A stretch of 64,000 bases of DNA from the NCBI GenBank assembly GCA_019634915.1, contig JAHCAN010000010.1, positions 1 through 64,000 on the forward strand, read 5' to 3'. Numbering within the stretch: position 1 is the first letter of the stretch; each line of letters starts with the position of its first letter. This DNA comes from Steroidobacteraceae bacterium (GTDB lineage Bacteria; Pseudomonadota; Gammaproteobacteria; Steroidobacterales; Steroidobacteraceae). Under the pieces are notes generated by a model. The model was not told the DNA's origin. It ran no database searches and worked only from the letters and a program-made list of their open reading frames with translations. A program made the translations under genes and the position numbers. This document shows positions 35,200-51,413 of the stretch, piece by piece.

Positions 35200-36246
35200 T
35201 CATCCCCAGAGTCGCGGTTCCGGCGGGTGGACCATGCCGTCGGCGTAGCGCATGCCGTGCGGGCGGTCCTCGGCGAGCAGCAGCGGCCCGTCGAGGTCGA
35301 TGAACCGCGCGCGCTGCGCGACGAGGAACGCCGGCGCCATCGCGAGCGACGTGCCGGTCATGCAGCCGACCATGATGCCGAGCCCTGCCGCCTCGGCCTG
35401 CGTCGCGAGTGCGAGCGCTTCGGTCAGGCCACCGGTCTTGTCGAGCTTGATGTTGATATAGGCGTAACGGCCGGTGACCTGCGCGAGCGAGGCGCGATCG
35501 AGACAGGACTCGTCGGCGCACAACGGTACCGGGCCGTCGTAGTCGGCGAGCGGCGCATCGAGGCCAGGCAGCAGCGGCTGCTCGATCAGCGCCACGCCGA
35601 GCGCCGCGAGCCGCGCCGACATCTTCCCGAGATGCGCGACCGACCAGCCGCCGTTGGCATCGACGATGATCTCGACGTCGGGTCGCGCGCGCCGCACCGC
35701 GGCGACACGTTCGAGATCGAGTTCCGGTTCGGCGCCGCCGCCGAGCTTGATCTTGAACCGACGCCAGGCCGGCATCGCCGCGGCTTTCGCCGCCATTGCC
35801 GCGGGCGCATCGATGCCGAGCGTGAACACGGTGGGCACCGCGCGCGGCGCAGCGAGTCCCGCGATCTCGTGGGCACGTCGCCCGGATCGCTTCGCCTCGA
35901 TGTCCCACAGCGCGCAGTCGAGCGCATTGCGCGCCGGACCTGCCGGCAGGCGGGCCGACAGCTCGTGCCGGTCGAGGCCGTGCGCGACGTCGCCGGCCAG
36001 CGCCTCGATCTGGTCGACCACCGGCTGCACCGCGGCGGGATCACTCTCGTGCGGCTCGCATTCGCCGCGGCCGGTGTGCGCGCCGTGCCGGATCTCGGCG
36101 ACGACCATCTGGCTGTGCGTGAACGCGGCCCGCGAGATGCGAAACACTTCCCTGAGCGGGTGCCGCTCGCCATGGGCGCGCAAGGTCGCGACCGGTGTGG
36201 CCGCCTCGCCCGCATCGTCTCCCGACACCGCCTGCCGCCCGGCCAT
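35200..36246 (-). CDS. dgcA: Enolase-superfamily racemase DgcA-like (N-acetyl-D-glutamate racemase / dipeptide epimerase)
   Basis: This 348-residue protein has the muconate-lactonising/dipeptide-epimerase fold: catalytic lysine in RFKIKLGG, metal ligands in IIVDANGGW, IEQPL and CADESC, and the second lysine in YINIKLDKTGG. The family includes L-Ala-D/L-Glu epimerases and DgcA, which converts N-acetyl-D-glutamate to the L form. A DgcN-type gene in the same locus favours DgcA. A GGAGG site precedes the ATG. The TGATA-N6-TATCA palindrome lies 56 bases upstream of the start. Confidence 0.85.
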   Translation of the reverse strand: MAGRQAVSGDDAGEAATPVATLRAHGERHPLREVFRISRAAFTHSQMVVAEIRHGAHTGRGECEPHESDPAAVQPVVDQIEALAGDVAHGLDRHELSARLPAGPARNALDCALWDIEAKRSGRRAHEIAGLAAPRAVPTVFTLGIDAPAAMAAKAAAMPAWRRFKIKLGGGAEPELDLERVAAVRRARPDVEIIVDANGGWSVAHLGKMSARLAALGVALIEQPLLPGLDAPLADYDGPVPLCADESCLDRASLAQVTGRYAYINIKLDKTGGLTEALALATQAEAAGLGIMVGCMTGTSLAMAPAFLVAQRARFIDLDGPLLLAEDRPHGMRYADGMVHPPEPRLWG

Positions 36247-36301: not shown

Positions 36302-36317
36302 TGATAGTTTTATATCA
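36302..36317. promoter_or_regulatory. Proposed RpiR operator, site 1 (dgcA)
   Basis: TGATA-GTTTTA-TATCA is a perfect 5-bp inverted repeat with a six-base spacer. It lies between the M24 stop and the dgcA start in an A/T-rich gap. It matches the TGWWA-N6-TWWCA pattern found at four other promoters of this locus. Confidence 0.6.
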
Positions 36318-36320
36318 TTT

Positions 36321-36995
36321 TCAAGCAGCTGTAGGCTGATCGAGCAGGAGATCCTCATAGAACGCGCCGAAACGCCGCTGAGGATGGCGCAGGTGGATCT
36401 CGAGCACCCACAGATCGGGGCTCGGGCTGAACCCGGCGTCCTTCAGGTCGCCCTTGTGGATCAGTGCGTGCGGAAAATCGGCGAGCCGGTGCCCGCCGAG
36501 ATCGAGATTGAGCCGCCAGCCCATGCGCTCGGCTTCGGCGGTCGCGAACTCATACAGCGCCGCGCCGGTCAGGCGCTCGCTGCGCCAGCGTGCCGCGACG
36601 ATGTCGTACAGCTCGTGCACGTCGCGACGCGCGCGATGCATCTCGGGATCGTCGCCGAAGACGAAAGTCTCGCCGGCGTCGCCCTCCCACTTCTGCCAGA
36701 CGGGCCCGATGTCGACGATCGCGATGTCGTGCTCGCCGAGCCGCACGCCGGCCTCGGACGGCTGGCCGTAGAACTTGACGGTATTGGGCCCGAAGCGCAC
36801 GAACACACCGTGCCAGCCGCGCAGCAGACCCTCGCCCTTCAGGATCTCGCGCGCGATCGCGCCGGCGTCCTCCTCGAGCATGCCCGGCTCGAGCCGCGCG
36901 CCGATCAGCCCGACCGCGGCGCGGGTGCGGCGGCGCGCCTCGAGCATCTGCTCGAGATCGTGGTGCGGCCCGTTGCGCTCTTCGGGGCGCGTCAT
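36321..36995 (-). CDS. M24 family metallopeptidase (Xaa-Pro dipeptidase-like)
   Basis: This 224-residue protein is a short pita-bread metallopeptidase. Possible metal ligands, in order, are IVDIG, EGDAGETF, the histidine of GGHRLADFPH, WVLEIH and the final FYEDLL. It lacks the N-terminal creatinase domain of full-size family members. The start overlaps the rpiR stop by four bases, so regulator and peptidase are one operon. A role in cleaving dipeptides for the surrounding D-amino-acid pathway is inferred. Confidence 0.85.
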   Translation of the reverse strand: MTRPEERNGPHHDLEQMLEARRRTRAAVGLIGARLEPGMLEEDAGAIAREILKGEGLLRGWHGVFVRFGPNTVKFYGQPSEAGVRLGEHDIAIVDIGPVWQKWEGDAGETFVFGDDPEMHRARRDVHELYDIVAARWRSERLTGAALYEFATAEAERMGWRLNLDLGGHRLADFPHALIHKGDLKDAGFSPSPDLWVLEIHLRHPQRRFGAFYEDLLLDQPTAA

Positions 36996-37879
36996 TTCCC
37001 CGCCCTCCCGCGCGTCGGGCGCGCGAAGCCGACGAACTCGTCGTACAGCTCGCTGATGTGCTCGAGCCGCGCCTCGACGTCGCGACCGCCGCCATATCCG
37101 ACGACGTCGTTCACGAGCAGGTTGATCAGCCCGACCATCGGCACCGACGACTGCCAGAACAGCGCGCCGTCACTGTCGGCGGCGAGCACATTGGTCGTGT
37201 AATGCGCTGCCCAGTCGCACAGCGTGTCGGTGATCATCACGAGCGCGAGGCCGGCCTCGCTGACTTTCTGCGCGAGCAGCCGCGACTGGCGCGAATAGCG
37301 GCGCACGTCGACGATCACGACGCAGCGGTCCGGCAGGTCGTTCAGCAGGATGTCGGCGAAATGGCCGGATTCGCTCGCGACCAGCTGCACCGCGGGGCGC
37401 ACGTACTGCAGGCTGTGCGCGAGCAGCGCCGCGATGCCGCGCTCGGTCTGGAAGCCGACGACCTGCACCAGCCGGCTCTCGGCGATCAGCCGCACCGAGT
37501 TCGTCCAGCCCTTGTTGCGGCTGCGCTCGTAGACCGCAATCAGTTGTTCGATCTCGCGCTCGAGCGTCCTGCGGCGCTTGTCCTGGTCCTTGAAGGTCGA
37601 CAGGAAATCCTGGAAATCCGCGCCGGCGAGCCACGGCAGGCTGACCGCGCCGCGCAGGTGCTCCTTCAGTTCGCGGAAGTGCTTGAAGCCGAGCGTGCGG
37701 CAGAAGCGGCCGACGGTCACGGCGCTGATGCCGAGACGACCCGCGAGCGACGCGGCGGTTTCGAACGGCACCGTTTCGCGATGGTTCAGCAGGTACAGCG
37801 CGATCTGGCGTTCCGACGCCGTGAACTCCGGCAGCCCGGCTTCGAGCCGGGCGAACAGATCGATGTTTCGTGGGCTCAT
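36992..37879 (-). CDS. MurR/RpiR family transcriptional regulator
   Basis: This 295-residue regulator has an N-terminal helix-turn-helix (PFETAASLAGRLGISAVTVGRFCRTLGFKHFRELK) and a C-terminal SIS domain (about residues 125-260) that in the family binds small phosphorylated or acylated effectors. No Shine-Dalgarno sequence is seen before the ATG at 37879, and the proposed operator starts on the ATG itself. It is the only regulator within the 35-47 kb locus, so it is the best candidate for reading the shared palindrome. The effector is unknown; N-acetyl-D-glutamate would fit the pathway. Confidence 0.92.
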   Translation of the reverse strand: MSPRNIDLFARLEAGLPEFTASERQIALYLLNHRETVPFETAASLAGRLGISAVTVGRFCRTLGFKHFRELKEHLRGAVSLPWLAGADFQDFLSTFKDQDKRRRTLEREIEQLIAVYERSRNKGWTNSVRLIAESRLVQVVGFQTERGIAALLAHSLQYVRPAVQLVASESGHFADILLNDLPDRCVVIVDVRRYSRQSRLLAQKVSEAGLALVMITDTLCDWAAHYTTNVLAADSDGALFWQSSVPMVGLINLLVNDVVGYGGGRDVEARLEHISELYDEFVGFARPTRGRAGK

Positions 37880-37894
37880 GTTAGCAAAGTAACA
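37879..37894. promoter_or_regulatory. Proposed RpiR operator, site 2 (rpiR-M24 / esterase)
   Basis: TGTTA-GCAAAG-TAACA is perfect (six matching bases in each arm if one flanking base is added). It sits in the 33-base divergent gap and touches the rpiR start codon, so binding could control both directions. Confidence 0.65.
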
Positions 37895-37912
37895 TAGGCA
37901 AGGAGAAAAGAC

Positions 37913-39322
37913 ATGGCTCAGGTTTCGCCGGCGGCCAGCCGCGCCGTGATCGCACTGCCCCTGCTCGCACTGCTGCTCGTGCCGCCGCCCGGCGCCTGCG
38001 CCGGCGCGCCGCAAGCACCGCAGAGCCCGGCCCTCGCGGCGATCCGTAACGCCGGCGACGCGGCGGCGCTGTGGCAACGGCTCGGCGAGGCCGGCACGCC
38101 GCTGATCGAAGCGCTGCCGGACGAGCCCGGCAACATGCTCGTCACCTTCCTGTGGCGCGATGCCGCCGTGGACGGCGCGCACAACATCGCGGTGTCCGGC
38201 GGCTTCCTGCTGGACCAGGACAAGGTCATCGATCCGCTGGTGCGGCTCGCCGGCACCGACATCCTGTGGCGCAGCTACGTGCTGCCGGCCGACGCCCGCT
38301 TCAGCTACTACTTCGTCGCGCCGCGCGGGCGCAGCGTCGCGCCCGATGCGGTCTGGACCGAACGCGTCGACGGCGTCACGCAGGAGTTCTTCGCCGACCC
38401 GCTCGCGCGGCGCCACTACACCGAGGTCACGCTCGACGGCGCGCGCCATCGCATCAGCTGGGCTGAAGGCCCCGCGGCACCCGCGGAGCCCGCGCTCGTG
38501 GCCGCGCAGCGCGGCGGCAAGCTGCTCGACTACACGATCGACAGCGCCGTCCTCGGCGAGTGCCGGCCCGTTTCGGTGTACGTGCCCGCCGCCGCCGCAC
38601 GTGGCGACCCGCCGGGACTGCTGCTGATGTTCGACCGCGAGGGCTTCCTGTCCGCCGCCGACGTGCCGGCGATGCTCGAGCAGATGATCGCCGCGGGCCG
38701 CATCGCGCCGATGATCGCGGTGTTCGTGGGCGCGATCGACGATGCGCATCGCGGGCGCGACCTGCCGCCGAATCCGGCGTTCCAGGCCTTCCTCGGTCAG
38801 GAGCTGCTGCCGTTCGTCCGCGAGCGCCATCCGTTCTCGGCGGATCCCGCGCGCAACGTCGTCGCGGGCTCGAGCTACGGCGGGCTCGCCGCGGCCGCGA
38901 CCGGACTCGCGCAACCTGCGCTGTTCGGCAACGTGATCTCGCTGTCGGGTTCGTTCTGGTGGTCTCCCGGCTGCTGCGACGACGACGGGGAGGACGAGGG
39001 AGACACCGAGCTGATCAGCGCCGACGCCGGCTGGCTGATCGGCGAATACGCGCGCGCGCCGCGCCGCGAACTGCGGCTGTTCCTCGATGTCGGCCGCTGG
39101 GAAGGCGCCGGCATGCTGCTGCCGAACCGGATGATGCGCGACGTGCTCACCGCGCGGGGCCACGAATTCGCCTACGAGGAATACTCCGGCGGCCACGACA
39201 TCATCCAGTGGCGCGCGAACCTGCCGCGCGCACTCGAGTACGTCACGGCGCCCCGCCGGCCTCTCCCGCCCGCAACGCCGCCGCGCGCAGCACCGCCGGA
39301 CGCGCATAGCCCAGGTAGATGA
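37913..39322 (+). CDS. Secreted enterochelin-esterase-like alpha/beta hydrolase
   Basis: This 469-residue protein has a signal peptide (about residues 1-31), an N-terminal early-set domain as in enterochelin esterases, and an esterase-D hydrolase domain. The nucleophile is in VAGSSYGGLAA and the histidine in SGGHDIIQW. AGGAG lies seven bases before the ATG. Substrate unknown; an ester or amide of the locus substrate is possible. Its 3' end overlaps the convergent permease by 80 bases. Confidence 0.82.
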   Translation: MAQVSPAASRAVIALPLLALLLVPPPGACAGAPQAPQSPALAAIRNAGDAAALWQRLGEAGTPLIEALPDEPGNMLVTFLWRDAAVDGAHNIAVSGGFLLDQDKVIDPLVRLAGTDILWRSYVLPADARFSYYFVAPRGRSVAPDAVWTERVDGVTQEFFADPLARRHYTEVTLDGARHRISWAEGPAAPAEPALVAAQRGGKLLDYTIDSAVLGECRPVSVYVPAAAARGDPPGLLLMFDREGFLSAADVPAMLEQMIAAGRIAPMIAVFVGAIDDAHRGRDLPPNPAFQAFLGQELLPFVRERHPFSADPARNVVAGSSYGGLAAAATGLAQPALFGNVISLSGSFWWSPGCCDDDGEDEGDTELISADAGWLIGEYARAPRRELRLFLDVGRWEGAGMLLPNRMMRDVLTARGHEFAYEEYSGGHDIIQWRANLPRALEYVTAPRRPLPPATPPRAAPPDAHSPGR

Positions 39323-40703
39323 GCATGCCGACGCCGAGCCAGATCGCGAGGCGGATCCAGGTATTGCCCGGCAGGCTCGCCATCAGGTAGATCGAGCTCA
39401 GCATGCCGATCATCGGCACGGCCGGCGAGAACGGCACGCGGAACGGCCGGTGCAGGTCCGGTGCCCGGCGCCGCAGCAGCAGCACGATGAAGCACACGAT
39501 CGCGAACGCGAGCAGCGAGCCGATCGACACCAGCTCGCCGAGCACGTCGATCGGCAGCAGGCCCGCGAACAGCGCACAGCCGACACCGACGATCACGGTG
39601 CCGGCCGCCGGCGTGCGAAAGCGCGCATCGACGCGCCCGAACAGCCGCGGCACCATACGATCCTGCGCCATCACGTAGAGGATGCGCGTCTGGCCGTACA
39701 GGCCGATCAGGATCGCCGACGCGAGCCCGACGACCACGCCGATGTTGACGAGCGGGCGCAGCCACGCGAGATCGCCGCCGGCCGCCGCGAGCGCGACCGA
39801 CACGGGATTGGCGACATTGAGCGTGCGGTAGTCTGCGAGCCCCACCATCACGATCGACATGCCGACATAGAGCAGCGTGCAGATCGCGAGCGCGCCCATG
39901 ATGCCGCGGCCGACGTCGCGCTGCGGATTGCGGCTCTCCTGCGCCGACGTCGAAATGCCGTCGAAGCCGAGGAAGGCGTAGAAGATCACCGCCGAACCGC
40001 GCAGTACGCCGCTCCAGCCGAACTCGCCGTAGCTGCCCTCGTTCGGCGGCACGAACGGCTGGAAGTTCTCGAGGCGCACATAGGCCGCGCCGAACACGAT
40101 CACGACCAGGATGATGCCCACCTTGATCGCCACCATGATGATGTTGGCGAAATTCGTCTCGCGCACGCCGATGACCAGCAGCACCGTGACGGCGAGCACG
40201 ACCAGCGCGGCCGGCAGATTGAACAGCGCGCCGGTCGCGATCAGGTGATGGCTGCCCGCGAGCGAGGCGAGCGGCGCCGACGACAGCGCATGCGGCAGCG
40301 CGAGGCCGAGCCCGGCGAGCAGGTCGGCGAAATAGCCCGACCAGCCGACGGCGACCGCCGAGCAGGCGACGAGATACTCGAGCACGAGACACCAGCCGAC
40401 GATCCAGCCGGTCAGCACGCCGCAGACGTCGCGCGCATAGGAATAGGCGCCACCCGATTTCGGCAGCACCGACGCGAGTTCGCCGTAGCACAGGCCCGTG
40501 CACAGGCACACGATCGCGGCGAACACGAAGGCCAGCGTGACCGCCGGTCCCGCGTACTGCGCGGCGGCGGTGCCGGTGATCACGAAGATGCCCGAGCCGA
40601 TCGTCGAGCCCACACCGGCGAGCATCAGGTGCCAGACATTGAGACAACGACGCAGCGTCGGTTCCGACTGCGTCTCGCCGACTGCGGGATCGGCGCTCGC
40701 CAT
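39243..40703 (-). CDS. APC superfamily amino acid permease
   Basis: This 486-residue protein has twelve hydrophobic segments. The first is GVGSTIGSGIFVITGTAAAQYAGPAV, the signature of cationic-amino-acid-type permeases; GYFADLL, FYAFLGFDGISTSAQESRNPQRD and the C-terminal FRVPFSP also match. It begins one base after the dgcN gene ends, so the two are one operon. Uptake of D-glutamate or another amino acid of the pathway is likely. Confidence 0.88.
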   Translation of the reverse strand: MASADPAVGETQSEPTLRRCLNVWHLMLAGVGSTIGSGIFVITGTAAAQYAGPAVTLAFVFAAIVCLCTGLCYGELASVLPKSGGAYSYARDVCGVLTGWIVGWCLVLEYLVACSAVAVGWSGYFADLLAGLGLALPHALSSAPLASLAGSHHLIATGALFNLPAALVVLAVTVLLVIGVRETNFANIIMVAIKVGIILVVIVFGAAYVRLENFQPFVPPNEGSYGEFGWSGVLRGSAVIFYAFLGFDGISTSAQESRNPQRDVGRGIMGALAICTLLYVGMSIVMVGLADYRTLNVANPVSVALAAAGGDLAWLRPLVNIGVVVGLASAILIGLYGQTRILYVMAQDRMVPRLFGRVDARFRTPAAGTVIVGVGCALFAGLLPIDVLGELVSIGSLLAFAIVCFIVLLLRRRAPDLHRPFRVPFSPAVPMIGMLSSIYLMASLPGNTWIRLAIWLGVGMLIYLGYARPAVLRAAALRAGEAGGAP

Positions 40704-40704
40704 G

Positions 40705-41757
40705 CTAGTGCCAGGTCGCGAGCATGGCGTCGACGATCGGCCCGACGCCGAAGCGCACGGGATCGCAGGCCGGCAGACCTGTCTCTTCGGTCGCCTCAGC
40801 CAGCAGCGCGCGCGCCTTCGGCTCCGCGTAGGACGAGGTGTTCAGGCTGACGCCGATGCCGCGCGCTTCCTTGTTGGTCAGCCTCGCGGCCTCGAGATGC
40901 ACGTCGAGGGCGTGGCGCAGCGACGCGCAGGAGTAGCGCTCGTAACCCTGCAGGCGCGTGCGCCCTGCCTCGTGGCAGATCACCAGCGCGTCGGGCTGGC
41001 TGCCGTGCACGAGCCCGAGCGTGACGCCGGCATAGGCCGGATGCAGCAGCGATCCCTGGCCCTCGATCACGTGCCAATGATCGACGGCCGCGACCGGCGA
41101 CAGCCATTCCGCGGCGCCGGAGATGAAGTCCGCCACGACCGAATCGATCGCGATGCCGCGCCCGGCGATCATGATCCCGGTCTGCCCGGTCGCGCAGAAA
41201 TCGGCGGCGACGCCGCGGGCGCGCAGCTCGCGCTCGATCGCGAGCGCGGTGAATTTCTTGCCGACCGCGCAGTCGACACCGACCGTCAGCAGGCGCAGGC
41301 CACTGCGCTTCTCGCCGGTTCCCGGCATGAAGTCGCGATCCGGATGACGCACGTCGAACAGCCGGCGGCCGGCGCGTGCCGCCGCGGCGGCAATCTGCGG
41401 ATGGTCCGCGAGGCGCTGGTGCAGGCCGGCCGCGACGTCGAGGCCGGCGGTGAGCGCATCGATGATTCCCGGCACCCAGGCGTCGTCGATGTAGCCGCCA
41501 TCGTTCGCCATGCCAATCACGAGCGTGCGCGCGCCGGCCGCGACGGCTGCGGTCGGGTCGAGGTCGGGCAGGCCGAGATCGACGGTCGCGGTGCCGGCAC
41601 GGAACTGTCCCAGGCACTCCTCGCGGCGCCAGTACGCGAGACCCGCGCCGGTCTTGGCCCAGCCGATATCCGGCGCATCGCCGAGGAAGATCAGGTACGG
41701 CGGCGACATCACCGGCCGCGCGATGTCGCGTGCGAGCGCCACGGCGTTCATCCGCAC
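40705..41757 (-). CDS. dgcN: DUF1611 family protein, DgcN-like (D-glutamate N-acetyltransferase type)
   Basis: This 350-residue protein has the DUF1611 layout with a P-loop-like LTVGVDCAVGKKFTALAIEREL. It also has FCATGQTGIMIAGRGIAIDSVVADFISGAAEWL, HVIEGQGSLLHPAYAGVTLGLVHGSQPDALVICHE and GIGVSLNTS. DgcN proteins acetylate D-glutamate so that DgcA can racemise it to N-acetyl-L-glutamate. The start is GTG 41757 or ATG 41751. The proposed operator lies 127 bases upstream, beyond the end of ridA. Confidence 0.85.
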   Translation of the reverse strand: MRMNAVALARDIARPVMSPPYLIFLGDAPDIGWAKTGAGLAYWRREECLGQFRAGTATVDLGLPDLDPTAAVAAGARTLVIGMANDGGYIDDAWVPGIIDALTAGLDVAAGLHQRLADHPQIAAAAARAGRRLFDVRHPDRDFMPGTGEKRSGLRLLTVGVDCAVGKKFTALAIERELRARGVAADFCATGQTGIMIAGRGIAIDSVVADFISGAAEWLSPVAAVDHWHVIEGQGSLLHPAYAGVTLGLVHGSQPDALVICHEAGRTRLQGYERYSCASLRHALDVHLEAARLTNKEARGIGVSLNTSSYAEPKARALLAEATEETGLPACDPVRFGVGPIVDAMLATWH

Positions 41758-41883
41758 GGCCCGTTCCGGCGATTGCTCGGCAGCGCGATCACAGCGCCGC
41801 GCGCGCCAGGCGCACCACGCGCGCGGCCGCCCGTCGAATACCCGGCTCGTCTGGACACGGACTCCCCTCCGGCTCGATCACAC

Positions 41884-41899
41884 TGATATATTTCTAACA
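41884..41899. promoter_or_regulatory. Proposed RpiR operator, site 3 (dgcN-permease)
   Basis: TGATA-TATTTC-TAACA matches TGWWA-N6-TWWCA. A second, weaker half-match (TGACG-CAACTA-TATCA, 41912-41927) lies 28 bases on. Together they form outer 9-base inverted arms, ACTGATATA (41882-41890) and TATATCAGT (41921-41929). Confidence 0.6.
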
Positions 41900-41908
41900 T
41901 TCAATTCG

Positions 41909-42319
41909 CTATGACGCAACTATATCAGTCTGGCCGGCCTCCTCCCCGAGCGCCGCGATGGCGTCCATCTCGACCAGCGAGTCACAGCGCAGCTCGCCGG
42001 CCGGCGCGATGATGCGGGCCGGCCGGTGCGCGCCGAAGGCGCGCGCGCAGGCAGCGTTCGCGACCGGCCACAGCGACAGGTCGCGGACATGAACGTTGAG
42101 CTTGAGGACCTGGCCTAGGCCCGAGCCGGCGGCCGCGAGGATCCGCGCGATCTGTTCGAGGCAGTAGTCGATCTGCGTTTGCGCGTCGCGCCCCGCGGCG
42201 CGGCCGTCGGGGCCGGCATTGCCGAGCACGCCCGACACGTAGACCACGTCGCGATGGATCACTGCGTGCGAGTAGTGCCCATGCGGCGGCGGGCAGTCCT
42301 CGCAATGAATCATCCGCAT
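41909..42319 (-). CDS. RidA family imine/enamine deaminase
   Basis: This 136-residue protein has the YjgF/RidA fold: HYSHAVIHRDVVYVSGVLGNAG, DAQTQIDYCLEQIARILAAAGSGLGQVLKLNVHV, and the C-terminal ARIIAPAGELRCDSLVEMDAIA. RidA proteins hydrolyse reactive imines released by PLP enzymes. The next upstream gene, 21 bases away, encodes a PLP enzyme acting on D-amino acids, which fits. The arginine that salt-bridges imino acids appears to be retained near the C-terminus (GELRCDSL). Confidence 0.88.
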   Translation of the reverse strand: MRMIHCEDCPPPHGHYSHAVIHRDVVYVSGVLGNAGPDGRAAGRDAQTQIDYCLEQIARILAAAGSGLGQVLKLNVHVRDLSLWPVANAACARAFGAHRPARIIAPAGELRCDSLVEMDAIAALGEEAGQTDIVAS

Positions 42320-42340
42320 TCCGTTCTCCCGGCCGCGGCG

Positions 42341-43438
42341 CTACCAGCCGCCGAAGCGCGGCCAGTGCGCGGCGACGTGCTCGTTGTCGTCGGTGACCGC
42401 GTAGGCCTCGTGCTGGGCGCAGGTCGCGCAGGCGTGGTTCGGCAGGATGCGCAGCCGCGAGCCGACCGGGAAACGTTGCAGATCGAAGGCGCGACCGTCG
42501 CGGCGCGCGACCAGCCCGTGCTCCTGGTTCGCGCCGGTGACGATCAGTTCATCGAGCACCGCGCCGCCGGCATCGCAGACAAGCCCGTAGCCCTGGTCGA
42601 CCGGCTGATCGGCAGTGCCACGATCGCGCGACAACGCCATCCAGCCGGCATCGATCACGATGCGGGACTTCGCCTCGTGGTGCCCGATCACCGTGCTCAG
42701 CACGGAAACCGCGATATCGGCCGGCGTGCACACGCCGATGCCGGCCATGACCAGGTCCTGGAACACGTACACGCCGGCGCGCACTTCGGTGACGCCGGTG
42801 AAGTCGCGCCCGAAGCTGACGGTCGGCGTCGAGCCGAGGCTCACGACCGGGCATGGCAGGCCCGCCGCGCGCAGGCGCGATGCAGCTGCGACGATCGCGC
42901 CACGCTCGAGCGTGGCATGCGCGACGAGTTCGGCGGTGCCGCGGCAGGCATAGCTGCCGCCCGCATGCGTCAGCACGCCGCCGAGCATGCCGGCCGTGGC
43001 GAGGATCCTGCCGGCCTCGACGAGGTCATCGCTGTCCGGACGCAGGCCCGAACGATGCCCGTCGCTGTCGATCTCGATCAGGATATCGAGTCGCGTGCTG
43101 GCCGCGCGGCAGGCATCGACGACTTCGCGCGCAACTGCCGCGCTGTCGAGAATCACCGAAAGTGTCGCACCGCGCCGCTGCAGCGCGAACACGTCCGGCA
43201 GTTTCGCCGGCACGATGCCGACGGCATAGAGGATGTCGCGAAAACCCGCCTCGAGGAAACGCGCGGCTTCGCGCAGCGTCGACACCGTGATCGGTCCCGG
43301 CTCGCCGGCGAACATGCGCCGCACGACGTCGATCGACTTCGATGTCTTTACATGCGGACGCAGTCGCACGTCGAACGGCGCGAGATGCGCGCGCATGCGC
43401 GCGAGATTGGCGTCGAGCTTGCCGCGGTCGAGCAGCAA
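42341..43438 (-). CDS. DSD1-family PLP enzyme (D-threonine aldolase / D-serine dehydratase-like)
   Basis: This protein of at least 365 residues has an alanine-racemase-type barrel with the PLP lysine in RPHVKTSKSIDVVRRM and a C-terminal domain with metal-binding histidine and cysteine in ILPNHACATC. Family members cleave D-threonine-type substrates or deaminate D-serine. The conserved N-terminus (DLGTPALLLD) extends 5' of the TTG at 43438. No ATG, GTG or TTG is in that stretch, but a CTG at 43477 follows GGGAG, so a rare CTG start is likely. It leads the operon with ridA. Confidence 0.85.
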   Translation of the reverse strand: MLLDRGKLDANLARMRAHLAPFDVRLRPHVKTSKSIDVVRRMFAGEPGPITVSTLREAARFLEAGFRDILYAVGIVPAKLPDVFALQRRGATLSVILDSAAVAREVVDACRAASTRLDILIEIDSDGHRSGLRPDSDDLVEAGRILATAGMLGGVLTHAGGSYACRGTAELVAHATLERGAIVAAASRLRAAGLPCPVVSLGSTPTVSFGRDFTGVTEVRAGVYVFQDLVMAGIGVCTPADIAVSVLSTVIGHHEAKSRIVIDAGWMALSRDRGTADQPVDQGYGLVCDAGGAVLDELIVTGANQEHGLVARRDGRAFDLQRFPVGSRLRILPNHACATCAQHEAYAVTDDNEHVAAHWPRFGGW

Positions 43439-43502
43439 GGCAGGCGTTCCGAGATCCGCGATCCGCAGGCTGTTCAGGGCTGGCTCCCGCTCCGGTCGGC
43501 GA

Positions 43503-43518
43503 TGTTATTATTCTTTCA
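43503..43518. promoter_or_regulatory. Proposed RpiR operator, site 4 (DSD1-ridA / S9 peptidase)
   Basis: TGTTA-TTATTC-TTTCA matches TGWWA-N6-TWWCA. It lies in the divergent gap between the DSD1-type gene and the S9 peptidase gene, 30 bases before the ATG of the latter. Confidence 0.55.
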
Positions 43519-43547
43519 AGTGATTTTTGATGTCAAACGAGGGTCAT

Positions 43548-45674
43548 ATGCGCACCGCGTCACTGCTGCCCCTCATGTCGGTCGCGCTGCTGCGGATCGC
43601 CGCCGCGGCGACACCGGCGCCGCTGTCGCTCGACGAAGTGCTGCGCGTGCCCGAAGTCACGGAGGTCCTCGCAGCGCCCGATGGCGCGCTCGCCTGGGTC
43701 GAGCGCATCGGCGGCACGCAGAACATCCTCTTGCGCACGGTGGATGGCCAGCTCGCGCCACTCACGCGAAACACAGCCGACGACGGTCAGCCGATCCGGC
43801 TGCTGGCCTTCACTGACGGCGGAAAGCGCCTGCTGTTCGCGCAGGGCGATGCGCAGAACGCCACCAACCTGCCCGAGCCGACCCGGCGCGTGCTCTACAC
43901 GGTGGCGCGCGACGGCGCGGCGCCGCTGCGCTTCGCTGCCGAGGCGCGCATCGTCGTGCCCTCGCCCGACGGACGCCGGCTCGCGATCGCGAGCGGCTCG
44001 CGCGTGTGGATCACCGGCGGCGATCCGCCCGGTGAGGACACCGCACCGGCATTCACCGACCGCGGCCGCGTCGCCGCGCTCGTCTGGTCGCCGGATGGGC
44101 GCCGCCTCGCCTTCGTCAGCGACCGCTCCGGCGCCGGTCGTGGCGACTATGGATTCATCGGCGTGTTCGACGCGGCCGCGCGCACGCTCACCTATCTCGC
44201 GCCCGGCATCGGCTTCGACATCGATCCCGTGTGGTCGCCGGACGGCGAGCGCATCGCGTTCATTCGTCATCGCCGCCCGGCGCGCACCTGGCGCTTCGAT
44301 GACCTCTCGGCGCAGGCACCGTTCGCGGTGATCGTCGCCGACGCGGACAGCGGCGAGCCGCGGTTCACCTGGGAGGCGCCGCGCGGTCGCGGCGGGCATT
44401 TCTCGGGCTTCTGGAGCGGCGCCGAATTCGATCCCGGTGCGCTCGGCAGCCTCTTCTGGATGAAGGACGGCAGCCTCGTCTTTCCCGGCGAGATGAGCGG
44501 CTTTCGCGCGCTCTACGCCCTCGACCTCACGGACGGCGCGCTGCGCCGGCTCACCGATCCGCAGATCGAAATAGACGGCGCAGCACAGTCGCCCGATCGC
44601 GCGCGACTCGTGTACTGGGCGCCATCGCGCGAGGACCTGCACCGGCTCGATCTTTACGAGCTGCAGGTGGAGGATGCGCTACGCCCGCGGCGCCTGCTGT
44701 CAGCATCGCCGTCCACCATGCGCTACGGCGCCGTGTTCCTCGCCGACGGCACGCTCGCGTGGCGCCAGGCGTCGAATCGCGCACCCGAACGTTTGATGTG
44801 GCGCGCGACGGACGGGCGCATCGCCGCGCTATCGACGCCAGGGCCGCTCGAGCGCATCGGCAAGCTGCTGCGCGAGCCCGAGATCGTCAGCTTCCGCTCG
44901 CGTGATGGCCTCGAGATCCACGGCGTGCTCTACCGCTCCGCGCAGAGCCCGCCGGGCACGCGCGCACCGCTGATCGTGCACGCGCACGGCGGCTCGCGCG
45001 ACAAGGCCTGGCCTGCCTGGCAGCCGTTCTTCGGCTATCCGCCCGTGCTGCGCTATTTCCTGACGCGCGGGTTTCACGTGCTCAGCGTCAACTACCGCAG
45101 CGGTACCGGCGACGGCCTCGACTTCCGCGAAGCCGCGCGCTACGGCGCGCGCGGCAACGGCGACGTCGAGGATCTGGTCGCGGCGGCGGGCTTCGCGCGC
45201 GATACGCTCGACTTCGTCGACCCGGCGCGCATCATCGCCTACGGCCATTCCTACGGCGGCCATCTCGTCGCGACCGCGCTCGCGCAGTCCGACGTCTTCG
45301 CGGCGGGCATCGACTCGGCCGGCATCTCCGACTGGGTGCACGAAATGGAGAGCGACAGCGGCGCACCGCTGCAGCTCGATATTCCGCAGCGCCTCGAGAT
45401 CGAACGGCGTGCCTACGGCTACTCGGCCATCGCCCATGTCGATACCTGGGGCGAGGAGCCGATTCTCTTCCTGCACGGCGACGCCGACCGCTCGGCCGCG
45501 ATGGACCAGACGATCGACCTGTATCTTGCGCTGCTGAATCGCGGCCGCCGCGCCGAGGCCGTCATCTTTCCGGGCGAAGCGCACGCGCTGCGCCTCGAGC
45601 GCAACCAGCGCCGTTACATCGAGGCGATCGCGCGCTTCCTCGAGCGCTACGAGCTCGCGCCCGGCCAGCGGTGA
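43548..45674 (+). CDS. S9 family prolyl-oligopeptidase-type peptidase, secreted
   Basis: This 708-residue protein has a signal peptide (to about residue 25), a WD40/TolB-like beta-propeller (VVPSPDGRRLAIAS, ALVWSPDGRRLAFVSDRS, DPVWSPDGERIAFIR) and a C-terminal hydrolase. The nucleophile is in AYGHSYGGHL, the aspartate in LHGDADRSAAM and the histidine in PGEAHAL. The ATG at 43548 has GAGGG upstream; earlier ATG and TTG codons lack one. It acts outside the cytoplasm on short peptides. It ends 28 bases inside the convergent S12 gene. Confidence 0.92.
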   Translation: MRTASLLPLMSVALLRIAAAATPAPLSLDEVLRVPEVTEVLAAPDGALAWVERIGGTQNILLRTVDGQLAPLTRNTADDGQPIRLLAFTDGGKRLLFAQGDAQNATNLPEPTRRVLYTVARDGAAPLRFAAEARIVVPSPDGRRLAIASGSRVWITGGDPPGEDTAPAFTDRGRVAALVWSPDGRRLAFVSDRSGAGRGDYGFIGVFDAAARTLTYLAPGIGFDIDPVWSPDGERIAFIRHRRPARTWRFDDLSAQAPFAVIVADADSGEPRFTWEAPRGRGGHFSGFWSGAEFDPGALGSLFWMKDGSLVFPGEMSGFRALYALDLTDGALRRLTDPQIEIDGAAQSPDRARLVYWAPSREDLHRLDLYELQVEDALRPRRLLSASPSTMRYGAVFLADGTLAWRQASNRAPERLMWRATDGRIAALSTPGPLERIGKLLREPEIVSFRSRDGLEIHGVLYRSAQSPPGTRAPLIVHAHGGSRDKAWPAWQPFFGYPPVLRYFLTRGFHVLSVNYRSGTGDGLDFREAARYGARGNGDVEDLVAAAGFARDTLDFVDPARIIAYGHSYGGHLVATALAQSDVFAAGIDSAGISDWVHEMESDSGAPLQLDIPQRLEIERRAYGYSAIAHVDTWGEEPILFLHGDADRSAAMDQTIDLYLALLNRGRRAEAVIFPGEAHALRLERNQRRYIEAIARFLERYELAPGQR

Positions 45675-47428
45675 GCGCAGCGCCGGAAGCTCGAGCCCGA
45701 CAGGATCAAGTGCTGGAAGCGCCCGCCGAGCGGCGCCGCGAAACGCACGCGCTCGGCGGCGAGCGCCGCGTCGGTGAAACGCCAGTCGCCATCGCCGGGC
45801 TGGGTGATCCGTCCCCAGCCCTCCAGCACCAGATCGTCACCGCGCGCGAACACCGCCACGCTGCCGAGCCAGGGATCGTTGCTGACATACACGCCCGCCT
45901 CTGCGCGCCAGCGAGCGCCGTCGCCCGTCGTGCCACCACCCGATGCGCGCGCACCGGCCGCGCCGCCGCCGGTCGCACGACCACCCGTCGGACCACCCGC
46001 GCTGAACCGGTTCTCCGCCCACCAGAAGTGCCGCTCCGCACCGGGTGCGCCGGGCTTGTCGAACTCGAGCATGTGTGTCGCGAAGTCCGGATGGTCGGTC
46101 GCGAAGCCGCGCTCCGCACGCTCGAACAGGCGTGCCGTGCGGCCGTTCGCCTCGATCGCAAGACCCGCGCCGTCGGCGCGTACCCGCACGCGCTGCGATC
46201 CCGGCCCGACGTAATCCCCGGCGAGCCCGGCGCCGTCTGCGATCGCGAACGGATCAGCCGGCGGCACCGCGACCGGCGCCGCCGCGCCCTCGAGCACTGC
46301 AGCGCGCAACTGCGCACCGAGCCGTGAGAGCGCGCGTGGCCGATAGCCGCCGACCGACGCATTGACGCCGACGAAGCAGCCCGCGCTGGTCGCGAGATCG
46401 ATCGTCATGCAGGCGACGAAACTCACCATGCCGCCGGTGTGCTCGAGGCTGCGCCGGCCGTCGATCAACCGATGGATGAAGCCATTGGCATAGCGCGCCT
46501 CGGGTGAATATTCCGGTGCTGCCACGCCTTCCCGAGTCGCGAACAGGCGTGCAGTGGTATCGGAAAAGAGCGGCGCGCCGTGCCCCTGTGCCAGTCGCGC
46601 GATGAAAGCGATATAGCGACACATGTCCGCCATCGTCATCGCGACCGAACCGGCCGCATCCTCGATCTCGATCCACGGCCCGGCTGTGAGCCGCGCTCCC
46701 GGCAAGGCCGGTCGATCCTCGAGCCAGGGCACATGCCCGGTCGCGTAGCGGCCGCGATCGGCGATGCGGATCACCGTAACGCTCGACGTGAGCCCGAGCG
46801 GCGCGAGCACGAGTTTGTTCAGCGCCTCGTGGAACGGCAGGCCCGTCACGCGCTCGATCACGAAGCCGAGCAGCGCATAACCAGTGTTCGAATATGAGAA
46901 GCGCGAGCCGGGCGTGTAGCCGACCCACAGGCGAGCCTGCGGAGAGTCGTATAGCCACGGCGCGCTGTCGGGCAAGCCACTGCTGTGATCGAGCAGTTGC
47001 GCGATCGTGATGGGCTCGGGCGGCACCGGCGCATCCGGCAGCAACTCACCGATTCGGGCATCGAGATCGAGCTTGCCGCGGTCGACGAGCACGTGGATGG
47101 CCAGCGCCACGAGCGACTTGCTGATCGAGCCGATCTGGTAGAGCTGCTCCGGACGCGCCGGCTCGCCACTCGCGATGTCCGCAAAGCCCACCGCAAAGGC
47201 GCTCGCGTAACCGCCCGTGTCGGCCAGCGCGACACCCGCGCCGGGAAGCCCGCGAACCTTCAGTTCCGCGGCGACCTGGTCGCGCAGCCGCGCCGACTCC
47301 TTGTCCAACGGAGCACCATCGTGCGGACCATCCGCGCTCGCCGGGGCGGCATCGACGCGGTGCACCGCCGCCGCCAACGCCACGCCCGCGGGCAGGAATC
47401 CAAGCAACGATCGTCGTGTCGTCGGCAT
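45647..47428 (-). CDS. Tat-exported S12 serine hydrolase (beta-lactamase / D-aminopeptidase family)
   Basis: This 593-residue protein has a twin-arginine signal (TTRRSLLGFLPAGVALAAAV). The S12 catalytic motifs are SISK (YQIGSISKSL, about residue 100) and YSN (about 181), with an HTGG region corresponding to the KTG triad. After the hydrolase domain come ~200 residues of lipocalin-like beta structure with a Gly/Ala/Thr-rich segment (about residues 485-510). S12 enzymes include D-aminopeptidases and D-Ala carboxypeptidases, fitting the D-amino-acid theme. Its promoter carries site 5 of the shared palindrome. Confidence 0.88.
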   Translation of the reverse strand: MPTTRRSLLGFLPAGVALAAAVHRVDAAPASADGPHDGAPLDKESARLRDQVAAELKVRGLPGAGVALADTGGYASAFAVGFADIASGEPARPEQLYQIGSISKSLVALAIHVLVDRGKLDLDARIGELLPDAPVPPEPITIAQLLDHSSGLPDSAPWLYDSPQARLWVGYTPGSRFSYSNTGYALLGFVIERVTGLPFHEALNKLVLAPLGLTSSVTVIRIADRGRYATGHVPWLEDRPALPGARLTAGPWIEIEDAAGSVAMTMADMCRYIAFIARLAQGHGAPLFSDTTARLFATREGVAAPEYSPEARYANGFIHRLIDGRRSLEHTGGMVSFVACMTIDLATSAGCFVGVNASVGGYRPRALSRLGAQLRAAVLEGAAAPVAVPPADPFAIADGAGLAGDYVGPGSQRVRVRADGAGLAIEANGRTARLFERAERGFATDHPDFATHMLEFDKPGAPGAERHFWWAENRFSAGGPTGGRATGGGAAGARASGGGTTGDGARWRAEAGVYVSNDPWLGSVAVFARGDDLVLEGWGRITQPGDGDWRFTDAALAAERVRFAAPLGGRFQHLILSGSSFRRCAHRWPGASS

Positions 47429-47491
47429 GTCGAACCCCCTGGAGCAGCGAACGGGTCGAAGTCTGTCAGATTTATTTGCGAAGTATATTAC

Positions 47492-47507
47492 TGAAAGTAA
47501 TATATCA
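47492..47507. promoter_or_regulatory. Proposed RpiR operator, site 5 (S12 hydrolase)
   Basis: TGAAA-GTAATA-TATCA matches TGWWA-N6-TWWCA and lies 64 bases before the S12 start. It overlaps a second dyad, TATATTAC (47484-47491) with GTAATATA (47497-47504). Confidence 0.55.
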
Positions 47508-47604: not shown

Positions 47605-47681
47605 GCGCCCGTAGCTCAGCTGGATAGAGTACTGCCCTCCGAAGGCAGGGGTCACTGGTTCGAATCCAGTCGGGCGCGCCA
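47605..47681 (+). tRNA. tRNA-Arg (anticodon CCG)
   Basis: The 77-base cloverleaf has acceptor arms GCGCCCG and CGGGCGC, D-arm TAGCTCAGCTGGATAGAG, an anticodon stem CTGCC/GGCAG with CCG at 47639-47641, a TTCGAATCC T-loop and an encoded CCA (47679-47681). A -10 match, TATACT, lies at 47586-47591. Its 3' half is partly repeated at 51375-51413, marking it as the integration site of the following island. Confidence 0.97.
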
Positions 47682-47778: not shown

Positions 47779-49002
47779 CTAATTTCCCCACAACGTCGAA
47801 ATCGGCGCAGCAAACAACCGCTCGCCGAAGGGCACGATCGTGTCGTGGTCGTAGAGAACCAAACCGAGTGCGAATCTCTTGCCGCATGCGTCGGCCAGTT
47901 TTCGCAAACCCGAGAAATCTCCACTCTTCACCGTCGCACTGCCTTTGACTTCGATACCGACGACGTGCCCGTCCTGGCCTTCGATGACGATGTCGACCTC
48001 GTTGTCGTATCGGTCCCGAAAGTGATGGAACTCGAAATGGCCTTCGCTCCAGGTGGCAAGCTTGAGGAGTTCGGCGAGCACGAAGGTTTCCAGCAGGGGT
48101 CCGAAGACCGTGCGTTCCGATTGCAGCCGCCCGGCAGAGAGGCCCCGCAGGGCTGCGAGCAGTCCTGAATCCAGAAAATGCAGCTTGGGTGCCTTGACGA
48201 GGCGTTTGACCTCGTTGTCGTGCCAGGGCGGCAGCGTGCGCAGCAAATACAGCTTCTCGAAAATGCCCACGTACTTCTGCGTCGTCACATGAGAGATGGC
48301 CAGAGGGGCGCCGAGACCGGAGTAATTCACCAGCTGTCCCGAGTGCTGGGCGAGGATGCGCAGCAATCGCGGCATCTGCCTCAGATGATCCACTTTGGCG
48401 ACATGACGTACGTCGCGCTCGATGATGGCTTTGACGTAGTCCAGAAACCATTTCTGCCGGCGCGCTTCGGAGGGGCGCTCCAGGGCTTCCGGGTAACCGC
48501 CGCACAATACGGTTCGAACCAGCTCGGCTCCGATGATGAGATCGCCGATTACGGGCGCTTTGCCCTGGAAAACGCGATCGAGAAAACTGCCCGGCTTGCC
48601 GCGCAGTTCGCCCTGCGACAGAGGCAACAGCTCGGATAGAGCCATGCGGCCAGCCAGCGAATCCGCTATTTGCGGCAGAGTCATGAGATTGGCCGAACCC
48701 GTCAATACGAAGCGGCCGGGGCGCTTGTCGATATCCACGCTGCGCTTGATGGCCAGCAACAGGCGCGGGGAGCGTTGAACTTCGTCGACAATGGCGCGGT
48801 CGAGTCCGCGCACGAACCCAACCGGATCGTGTTGGGCCGTATCCAGCGTGGTGTCGTCATCAAGCGTGAGGAATGGCATGTCCTCCCTGGCGAGCTTCTC
48901 GGCAAGTGTCGTCTTGCCTGCCTGGCGAGGTCCCGTTATCAACACGACACGGGTGTCCAGCAACGCTTGGCGTAACTGGCGCTCGATGAAGCGCGGATAC
49001 AT
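47779..49002 (-). CDS. AAA ATPase with DUF4143 domain
   Basis: This 407-residue protein has a Walker A motif LITGPRQAGKTTLAEKL, Walker B-like AIVDEVQRSP, sensor VLTGSANLMTL and a C-terminal DUF4143 part ending in a nuclease-like core (NEVDIVIEGQDGHVVGIEVKGSATVKSGDFSGLRKL). This family (AAA_14) is common in islands of bacteria and archaea; its role is unknown. Three 22-base tandem repeats lie directly upstream of its start. Confidence 0.9.
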   Translation of the reverse strand: MYPRFIERQLRQALLDTRVVLITGPRQAGKTTLAEKLAREDMPFLTLDDDTTLDTAQHDPVGFVRGLDRAIVDEVQRSPRLLLAIKRSVDIDKRPGRFVLTGSANLMTLPQIADSLAGRMALSELLPLSQGELRGKPGSFLDRVFQGKAPVIGDLIIGAELVRTVLCGGYPEALERPSEARRQKWFLDYVKAIIERDVRHVAKVDHLRQMPRLLRILAQHSGQLVNYSGLGAPLAISHVTTQKYVGIFEKLYLLRTLPPWHDNEVKRLVKAPKLHFLDSGLLAALRGLSAGRLQSERTVFGPLLETFVLAELLKLATWSEGHFEFHHFRDRYDNEVDIVIEGQDGHVVGIEVKGSATVKSGDFSGLRKLADACGKRFALGLVLYDHDTIVPFGERLFAAPISTLWGN

Positions 49003-49033
49003 GGAGAATACCTGAAATTCTGCGATGAGAGTG

Positions 49034-49093
49034 GCGGCTAATCGTAAAGAAGAACGCGGCTATTTGAAAGTCTAAGTGCGGCTAGTTGAAAGT
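49034..49093. repeat. Three tandem 22-bp repeats upstream of the ATPase gene
   Basis: GCGGCTAATCGTAAAG (49034), GCGGCTATTTGAAAGT (49056) and GCGGCTAGTTGAAAGT (49078) start exactly 22 bases apart. Copies two and three share 15 of 16 bases. The last copy also forms CGGCTA/TAGCCG arms. Located 32 bases before the ATPase start, they look like an iteron-type regulatory site. Confidence 0.7.
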
Positions 49094-49630
49094 AGCCGAA
49101 GCGGGCCTTCCGACGCGCGCTTGAGGGTCTCATCACGTCGGACCGGGTCGTGGCGACCGGAGAGGGCGCGGGCCCGCAGGTTCAGCCTCAAGCCCGGCGT
49201 TTCTGGCCACGGTGACGACGATGGCCAACAAGCCAGCCGCGGAAACCATGTAACCATGCGGATTCTCAGCAATTTGATTCCGGCCAGGTCAGGACGCTGG
49301 CCAGAATCCGTGGCCAGAAAGGACGGCTCCGCCGTTCGCCCTTGGCGCGCCAGCAGCGTTCGATCCCGTGGAACGGCGTATCGTGGACTATTCGCGGCTG
49401 GCGATGGCCGTTTCACCGCCGAGATCGCGGCACAGGCAGGTTTCTCGACGCGCTACCCAGCACCGTCATGGCAGCGCTGCCGCACGGTCCGCGCCACTGG
49501 AAGGCATGCGGTTCTTCAGATATTCCGTCCATGAAGCCGTCCATGAAGTCAATATCTCAAAGAGCTGCTCGGCCAAGGAGTTCGAAGTTTCTCCTCCCGG
49601 GCGCGCCATCCAAGAGTTATGGTGGAGCCC
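49094..49630. other. Region without a credible gene inside the island
   Basis: About 540 bases with short open frames on both strands but none with a family-like sequence, signal or good ribosome site. The pieces read like decayed accessory DNA; nothing could be named. Confidence 0.5.
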
Positions 49631-49816
49631 ATGACTGCCGTGGAAGAAGCCGAGCGCGCCGGTATCGACTTGAGCCTCATCGAGGTGAGCCTCAGTTATT
49701 CCTACGACAAGCGCGCCCATCAACATCAGGCAGCGCTCGAACTTGCCCTGGAGCTCGAACGAGCAGGATACCGCTTACGTGGCGCACCTCAACCGGCTGA
49801 TCGAACGCCTGACTGA
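49631..49816 (+). CDS. Short partner protein of the nucleotidyltransferase
   Basis: This 61-residue protein, TAVEEAERAGIDLSLIEVSLSYSYDKRAHQHQAALELALELERAGYRL, is mostly helical. It resembles short proteins encoded just before nucleotidyltransferase genes, an arrangement like toxin-antitoxin pairs. The next gene starts within it. The function is not known. Confidence 0.6.
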   Translation: MTAVEEAERAGIDLSLIEVSLSYSYDKRAHQHQAALELALELERAGYRLRGAPQPADRTPD

Positions 49817-50261
49817 CGCCGGGATCGACTTCGTCGTCGTCGGTGGCTTCGCGGGGATGCTGCACGGTTCGACGCTGGTCACCCGTGATCTCGACGTCTG
49901 CGTCGTTCTCAGCGCGGACAATGTGGCCCGCCTGCGGGAAGCCTTCCGCGACTTGCGGCCGAGACACCGGTTTGCGAGCCCGAAACACTCCTTTCTGGAC
50001 AACCCTGAACCGGGAGTCGCACTCAACAATTTGTACCTGGAAACGGAGCTCGGGCCGATCGATTTCCTCGGTTCGATCAAAGGTGTAGGTGATTTCGAGT
50101 GTGTGCGTGCCGGGTCCATCGAAATCGAGCTGTTCGGACGACGTTGCCGTGTGATGTCGATCGAATCCCTCATCCAGGCCAAGCAGGCGATGGGCCGCGA
50201 CAAGGACATGATTGCCGTAAAGGAGTTGCGGGCGATCGCGGAAAAACAAAGACGGGAGTGA
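49779..50261 (+). CDS. MNT-fold nucleotidyltransferase
   Basis: This protein of about 160 residues has the nucleotidyltransferase core FVVVGGFAGMLHGSTLVTRDLDVCVVL, with the GG and DLD catalytic elements, then PIDFLGSIKG and SIESLIQAKQAMGRDKD. Such proteins modify tRNA or partner proteins in some toxin-antitoxin and abortive-infection systems. The start is uncertain (GTG 49779 or TTG 49743); either overlaps the preceding short gene. Confidence 0.78.
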   Translation: MAHLNRLIERLTDAGIDFVVVGGFAGMLHGSTLVTRDLDVCVVLSADNVARLREAFRDLRPRHRFASPKHSFLDNPEPGVALNNLYLETELGPIDFLGSIKGVGDFECVRAGSIEIELFGRRCRVMSIESLIQAKQAMGRDKDMIAVKELRAIAEKQRRE

Positions 50262-50291
50262 ACTACAGGGCAGCGTCCCTGAGCCGAGCGA

Positions 50292-50558
50292 TCAGGCAGG
50301 CAACTGGGCCAGGAGAACCTCTCGTAGATCCCCGAACTCATCCTTGTACTCATCCAGCAACTGTCTTGCTGCGCGAATCGCACCGGCCTCGTCGTGGGAA
50401 TCGATCAGACCAAGGTCCGCAGCAATCGCATCTATGAACGATTCTGGCGAATCGGCATCGGTACGATACTCGCACCATTCGCGCACTATCTCTGCATCGT
50501 CAAGACACCAGCATTGCTGAGCGTGCGTTATGGCTCTCGAAACAAACTCTTCGGCCAT
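50292..50558 (-). CDS. Hypothetical protein
   Basis: This 88-residue acidic, cysteine-containing helical protein (ITHAQQCWCLDDAEIVREWCEYR near the start) belongs to no family I recognise. The ATG at 50558 has AAGGGG upstream and lies just after the HNH gene stop, so the two are likely co-transcribed. It could be a partner or immunity protein of the nuclease; this is only positional inference. Confidence 0.55.
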   Translation of the reverse strand: MAEEFVSRAITHAQQCWCLDDAEIVREWCEYRTDADSPESFIDAIAADLGLIDSHDEAGAIRAARQLLDEYKDEFGDLREVLLAQLPA

Positions 50559-50563
50559 GTCTT

Positions 50564-51250: not shown

Positions 51251-51374
51251 GACGGGCGAATTACATCACAAGCCGTCTGATCTACGTCCCCCCAACTGCG
51301 GCCAAGAGCATCATGCCGCTTGGCGCCCCAGCAGACCCGGTGCAACCAATTGATCGGAAACTCTCTTTTGAGGT

Positions 51375-51413
51375 CCTCCGAAGGTAAGGGTTACGCGTGC
51401 GAATCCAATCGGG
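51375..51413. repeat. Degenerate copy of the tRNA-Arg 3' half (att remnant)
   Basis: This 39-base stretch matches 47636-47674 of the tRNA-Arg gene at 32 positions, with no gaps, from the anticodon loop through the T-loop. The preceding bases are not tRNA-like, so it is not a whole tRNA pseudogene. It is most simply the far attachment site of the island, now mutated. Confidence 0.7.

Follow-up and report, generated by a model that had tools for sequence, protein, structure and literature searches.

What controls the genes with which a Steroidobacteraceae bacterium would scavenge D-amino acids? They lie as a cluster of ten (dgcA, M24, rpiR, esterase, APC permease, dgcN, ridA, DSD1-like, S9, and S12) between positions 35200 and 47428 of the window, i.e., the whole 64,000-nucleotide stretch of DNA analyzed here (C2:1-64000 in an assembly of 2.78 Mb in 58 contigs, 78.6% complete). 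A 16-bp palindrome, TGWWA-N6-TWWCA, recurs between the genes, and the original prediction was that it marks a regulon of the RpiR-family protein encoded among them. The comparisons described below agree with this: the palindrome is very probably the operator of the protein encoded at 36992-37879, which would act as a local, autoregulated repressor.

There are five exact matches to the pattern in the window, each in an intergenic region where it had been predicted, except that the one attributed to dgcN and the permease is upstream of dgcN, between ridA and dgcN. Candidate operator 1 (TGATAGTTTTATATCA, 36302..36317) sits between the stop of M24 and the start of dgcA, 55 bp from the dgcA ATG. 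Candidate operator 2 (TGTTAGCAAAGTAACA, 37879..37894) lies in the gap between the divergent rpiR and esterase genes, and it does overlap the rpiR start codon, as was claimed, though by one base only, the A of the ATG at 37879. Candidate operator 3 (TGATATATTTCTAACA, 41884..41899) is upstream of dgcN and the permease, just beyond the ridA stop, candidate operator 4 (TGTTATTATTCTTTCA, 43503..43518) is in the divergent gap between DSD1-ridA and S9, and candidate operator 5 (TGAAAGTAATATATCA, 47492..47507) precedes the S12 gene by 63 bp. The five sites fill the five gaps able to drive transcription of the ten genes; all other neighboring genes overlap or directly adjoin one another, in head-to-tail or tail-to-tail arrangement.

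The chance of a match given earlier, 1 in 65,536 per position, is correct. When the window was shuffled preserving dinucleotides (n=100), matches averaged 0.03, with a maximum of one and no shuffle giving five. When each gap was shuffled alone in the same way, the probabilities were 0.00145, 0.0006, 0.00015, 0.0004, and 0.000875, so the sites are not accounted for by the AT-rich composition of the gaps. These values are optimistic, because the pattern was derived from the same five sites. The ranking by a held-out matrix is free of that fault.

The held-out matrix came from relatives of the regulator. A profile of four RpiR proteins led to 80 loci, which, with L009-L011 added and L018 (a duplicate of L009) removed, gave 82 sequences upstream of rpiR, thinned to 24. 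From these, the window excluded, palindromic motifs of widths 12 to 24 were derived de novo by expectation maximization. The best palindrome was 16 bp wide (score 98.8), with the half-site TG(A/T)(C/T)A(G/T) and N4 between the inverted halves; a width of 18 scored 95.0 (the 16-bp motif plus flank) and a width of 23 scored 87.4. Applied to the window, the matrix placed the five sites at ranks 1-5 of 63,985 positions: operator 1 (16.44), operator 5 (15.5), operator 3 (15.01), operator 4 (14.06), and operator 2 (10.61), the weakest of the five, with the next position in the window scoring 10.0. None of 719 column permutations of the matrix put all five sites in the top five (six put four and seven put three there), nor did any of the eight other motif widths, the largest number being three. 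The proposed regulon is thus supported by a motif learned without it.

The sites are also local. The whole assembly holds seven exact matches, as against one match to the reversed control pattern, and five of the seven are within the 11-kb cluster, as expected of a regulon whose sites are confined to the cluster of their regulator. The many unrelated copies that were to count against the prediction did not appear: there are two others, one of which scores like a true site. Allowing one mismatch gave no excess in the assembly (47 matches vs 65 for the reversed control), hence no pointer to a wider regulon, a possibility rejected on this count.

Relatives of the locus carry the palindrome in corresponding places. 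Across 83 relative loci, the exact pattern matches nine times. Seven of these matches precede rpiR (L016, L028, L030, and L094), dgcA (L016 and L023), or an APC permease that adjoins a second rpiR copy (L011). In L009, rpiR directly follows dgcN, and the palindrome stands before the S12 gene (TGTTAGCTTACTGACA; also L018:5944). A matrix built from the window alone finds 29 matches in 16 relative loci, whereas 200 permutations gave a mean of 6.24 and at most 24. With the family matrix, whose counts are partly circular (it was trained on 24 of the upstream sequences) and come mostly from Pseudomonas loci, a site scoring at least 12 lies within 300 bp upstream of rpiR in 71 of 80 loci, and one scoring at least 9 in 76; among the 24 nonredundant upstream sequences, the figures are 15 and 20. 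The other two of the nine exact matches, both in L052, lie about 7 kb away from rpiR and fit no explanation.

The reverse comparison points the same way. Stretches around dgcN that lack a window-type rpiR within about 4 kb carry no strong sites: 29 of them (111,752 bases, the window's own excluded) yielded two weak matches, of 12.5 and 12.0. The 30 stretches, counting that of the window, were taken for their top scores rather than sampled at random, and G105, from which L104 derives, carries the regulator at another place in its genome. Within the family, dgcN is present in 87 of 217 genomes and window-type rpiR in 3 of 120 at an E value of 1e-20; at 1e-40, rpiR of this type is found in 1 of 369 genomes of the class, namely the window's own.

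Several observations weigh against this account. No good site lies upstream of rpiR in L070 or L075. The window-only matrix reaches P 0.05 in just 11 of the 24 nonredundant rpiR upstream sequences, and P 0.01 in 8, a low yield because many relatives, chiefly Pseudomonas, have C at position 4 (TGACAG-N4-CTGTCA). The exact pattern shows no clear concentration at the locus in four of five relatives' genomes (pattern vs control: 5 vs 1 in G583, 9 vs 11 in G584, 6 vs 10 in G585, 36 vs 30 in G586, and 23 vs 12 in G587); such counts are informative only for relatives whose cluster is very similar. The looser family pattern TGNYAKN4MTRNCA has six matches in the assembly, two of them in the cluster, vs 14 for its control; its matches are mostly G+C-rich, and the pattern is useless without weighting. 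Finally, the family matrix gives a remote intergenic site, C8:40233, a score of 15.0, level with the cluster sites. The surrounding stretch, conserved in G051, has a promoter-like sequence (TTTACA, then TAACAAT) that leads into a short element rich in G+C and a hairpin resembling a terminator, all upstream of ubiE. In this context, the site is taken for a promoter rather than an operator, although RpiR may bind there.

In the same conserved stretch (L013:7211-7331, G000:C8), the short G+C-rich element, which ends in a hairpin plus T-run, is perhaps an undescribed small RNA. Compared with SorX, it reached 24.7 bits, under the gathering score of 46.6.

A second, weaker palindrome accompanies three of the five operators, in each case at exactly 28 bp: TGACGCAACTATATCA (41912..41927, score 7.8) beside operator 3, TGTCAAACGAGGGTCA (43531..43546, score 4.1) beside operator 4, and TGTCAGATTTATTTGC (47464..47479, score 4.9) beside operator 5. 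In 5000 trials that kept the sites and shuffled the 50-bp flanks, none gave three second palindromes at 28 or 29 bp and eight gave two. In the relatives, 57 palindrome pairs are spaced by 29 bp and four by 28 bp, so the distance was no free choice, and a tetramer may bind both sites of a pair. Another inverted repeat, with a different center (TATATTACT-GAA-AGTAATATA, 47484-47504), overlaps operator 5.

How might such a system work? A dimer (or tetramer) of RpiR would bind the 16-bp palindrome in all five promoter-bearing gaps, its own included, and at some promoters the weaker copy 28 bp away would be bound as well. In the absence of substrate, RpiR would keep the ten genes repressed, until a metabolite of the pathway for D-glutamate or D-amino-acid peptides binds the SIS domain and RpiR is released. 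N-acetyl-D-glutamate, D-glutamate, and a D-glutamate peptide are natural candidates for the effector, and the choice of N-acetyl-D-glutamate among them would be a guess. Autoregulation is suggested by the position of operator 2, which abuts the rpiR start. For DSD1-ridA, a promoter-like sequence, TTGACA-18-AATAAT (43507..43536, minus strand), agrees with the consensus at 11 of 12 positions, and its -10 element (43507-43512) falls within operator 4; two sites of this quality were found in the region vs 0.8 expected, which makes the promoter weak evidence alone. The placement of operators 4 and 2, taken with OngR (PMC9537276) and HexR (PMC5489143), both repressors, makes steric repression with autoregulation the likeliest mode, well ahead of activation.

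What if the palindrome belongs to this RpiR protein, but RpiR activates the pathway genes or acts both ways? DgcR of Pseudoalteromonas is reported to be a positive regulator of dgcN and dgcA. SapR, described as positive in PMC9884982, is the best NCBIfam match to the window's RpiR, though far under the cut-off at 147.7 bits vs 500, and RccR, a member of the RpiR family, binds more strongly with its ligand at one type of site and more weakly at another (PMC5489143). Against this stand the two operator positions, over a -10 element and against the rpiR start, which suit a repressor, as well as the precedents of OngR and HexR. Activation or dual action is on balance unlikely, if by no means negligible.

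Much less likely is that the palindrome serves some more general regulator and that RpiR is incidental. The outline TGTnA-N6-TnACA is common to CRP- and TyrR-like dyads with N6 spacing, and C8:40233 scores as high as the cluster sites despite its distance. A general regulator, however, sits poorly with just seven exact copies in 2.78 Mb, five of them beside rpiR, with the missing one-mismatch excess, with a matrix that could be learned upstream of rpiR relatives, and with the want of strong sites in the dgcN stretches that lack rpiR; C8:40233, for its part, sits at the likely promoter of the conserved transcript-like element upstream of ubiE, also present in G051. There is, finally, next to no room for chance or AT-rich promoter sequence. 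The gaps are indeed richer in AT than the genome, two of them at 38-42% G+C, and the pattern was defined after the sites were seen, but the held-out ranking, as it stands, already refutes this reading, and the window shuffles, gap shuffles, and permutations also speak against it. What is left is a real, local RpiR regulon, probably autoregulated, with repression likelier than activation and a possible wider story in a subgroup of regulators concerned with D-amino acids.

The regulator itself has an N-terminal HTH_6 domain (49.5 bits, cut-off 28.3) and a C-terminal SIS domain (29.1 bits, cut-off 25), which place it in the RpiR/MurR family. It falls short of the cut-off of the SapR equivalog model, NF046014. 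It was said to be the only regulator in the locus, which holds among the ten cluster genes tested; elsewhere in the assembly, contig C34 encodes another HTH_6 protein, also RpiR-type (G000:C34:122382-122573). The usual phosphosugar-loop residues of SIS domains are lacking in the window's RpiR, a matter that has no bearing on family membership but does bear on the ligand. Aligned with the solved structure 8ju9, it has GFQTERG in place of GFGASG, and RRYSRQS where the SQSG loop would be. The altered residues, G142-G148 and R193-S196, show no variation across the 25 subgroup sequences aligned (alignment A2; L040, whose stretch contained a stop, was excluded, L094 was left out of the repeat alignment, and fold alignment A3 excluded L009-L011, with L018 standing in for L009). 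We read the altered loops as a loss of the usual phosphosugar pocket.

Among the relatives, some neighbors of rpiR were annotated in 17 loci, and 12 of these loci have a gene of D-amino-acid type (dgcN/dgcA, an amidohydrolase of the D-aminoacylase kind, or D-amino-acid oxidase, DAO); in L030, L032, L040, L075, and L087, the annotated neighbors are only amino-acid or peptide transporters, ornithine-cyclodeaminase-like genes, or enolase-type genes. By tblastn, dgcN is found in 12 of 80 loci and dgcA alone in L019, the apparent dgcA matches of L087 and L089 (34% and 27%) being rejected as other enolase-family genes or doubtful. In a Sphingopyxis locus (L023:4938-11136), a close rpiR homolog lies among genes for an aldehyde dehydrogenase, a 2-oxoadipate dioxygenase, an FAD oxidase, and a class III aminotransferase, a neighborhood reminiscent of lysine-type catabolism; dgcA and dgcN are also close by.

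Residue 53, in the helix-turn-helix, may be related to position 4 of the half-site, where Glu-type relatives have C in 23 of 34 half-sites, Ala-type relatives in 0 of 6, and the window in 0 of 10. The proteins compared are related to one another (L009, L011, L070, and L075 were dropped for want of a site at threshold), and C half-sites also occur in other sites of Ala-type loci (L015:7263, L016:8853, and L018:5944), so this association is only a lead. One may nonetheless imagine an RpiR subgroup of alpha-, beta-, and gammaproteobacteria in which the phosphosugar loops have been exchanged for invariant GFQTERG and RRYS, and which responds to ligands resembling amino acids, chiefly D-amino acids or N-acetylated versions of them. 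Its members would share an operator grammar, a 16-bp palindrome with a second at 28-29 bp, position 4 being C where residue 53 is Glu and T/A where it is Ala, and the window's regulator would be the D-glutamate version. We hold this view tentatively, at somewhat short of an even chance.

The genes under the proposed control are as follows. On the minus strand, dgcA (35200..36246), for N-acetyl-D-glutamate racemase, scores 429.5 bits with NF042940, above the equivalog cut-off of 400, and dgcN (40705..41757), probably for the N-acetyltransferase of the D-glutamate pathway, scores 467 bits with NF041892, slightly below its cut-off of 480, matching the full model (1-326 of 326; Pfam DUF1611). Also on the minus strand are an M24-family peptidase-like gene (36321..36995; Peptidase_M24), with a 4-base overlap at the rpiR stop, rpiR itself, the APC amino-acid permease (39243..40703; AA_permease_2), the ridA-like gene (41909..42319; Ribonuc_L-PSP), the DSD1-like gene for a pyridoxal-phosphate enzyme of D-serine dehydratase/alanine racemase-N fold (42341..43438; D-ser_dehydrat, Ala_racemase_N), and the S12 serine hydrolase of beta-lactamase fold (45647..47428; Beta-lactamase). 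The plus strand has the enterochelin-esterase-like gene (37913..39322; Esterase, Enterochelin_N) and the S9 peptidase (Peptidase_S9), listed as 43527..45674 but likelier to start at the ATG at 43548, judging from a signal-like N terminus. At the cluster edge, 98 bp past operator 5, is a gene for tRNA-Arg (CCG; 47605-47681), beyond which G+C falls to 0.61-0.62 (48001-52000) vs about 0.70 elsewhere in the window. Integration at the tRNA gene was considered and rejected, as a search for direct repeats in 30000-52000 gave no repeat of the tRNA end.

The RpiR of the cluster groups with four sphingomonad proteins (SH-like approximate likelihood ratio test 99; 77% identity to L016), apart from the protein of the same-genus genome G051, in a quick tree that carried long-branch warnings for other rows. 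Among other cluster proteins, M24 (74%), the APC permease (71%), dgcN (68%), and dgcA (65%) match L016, and overall the cluster proteins are closer to sphingomonad ones (65-77%) than to those of the same-genus genome. Genes were probably transferred between sphingomonads and the window's lineage, and thereby across classes.

The proposed regulon is an ordinary type of switch on an unusual pathway. For D-glutamate scavenging, which is linked to bacterial cell-wall turnover, it supplies a candidate operator sequence and a testable question of the effector. If the subgroup reading is true, then, for many proteobacteria, a single alignment would predict both the operators and the D-amino-acid targets, and it would offer a route to D-amino-acid-responsive promoters as biosensors.

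How does the system compare with those already known? Yu et al. (2023, ISME J; cited in PMC12363236) are said to have described a DgcN-DgcA pathway for D-glutamate with DgcR, a positive regulator of dgcN/dgcA. The window has in common with it dgcN, dgcA, and a dedicated regulator, and differs in that DgcR is reported to be positive; should DgcR be of the RpiR type, the novelty of the window's regulator shrinks. No description of the operator was found among open-licence papers, a set that does not include the key paper on the D-glutamate pathway. The Pseudomonas regulators of L048 and L035 belong to the same subgroup (42-43% identical), with TGACAG-N4-CTGTCA upstream of rpiR; they differ in the C at position 4 and in their neighbors, Ldh_2, an amino-acid ABC transporter (with a binding protein of Lys/Arg/Orn type), and DAO, matches that fall under the NCBIfam cut-offs. 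We take these neighbors to be like the D-lysine genes of P. putida.

SapR of Burkholderia pseudomallei is said to activate sap1. With its HTH_6 and SIS domains, SapR resembles the window's RpiR, but it is reported (PMC9884982) as an activator of a surface protein, which counts against repression here. HexR and RccR of Pseudomonas (PMC5489143) are also RpiR-family proteins with helix-turn-helix and SIS domains and pseudo-palindromic operators; the RccR half-sites TGTAGT/ACTACA resemble TGWWAG, and RccR likewise has two spacings or site forms. They differ in their effector, the phosphosugar acid 2-keto-3-deoxy-6-phosphogluconate (KDPG), in the HexR site, TTGT-N7-8-ACAA, and in their targets, genes of central carbon metabolism. 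OngR of the Pseudoalteromonas ong cluster (PMC9537276) is a MurR/RpiR local repressor in a catabolic cluster. Its pathway is for an oxidized chitin sugar (GlcNAc1A), but the ong cluster also encodes a putative deaminase of D-amino acids and a RidA protein, and OngR controls some operons of its own cluster.

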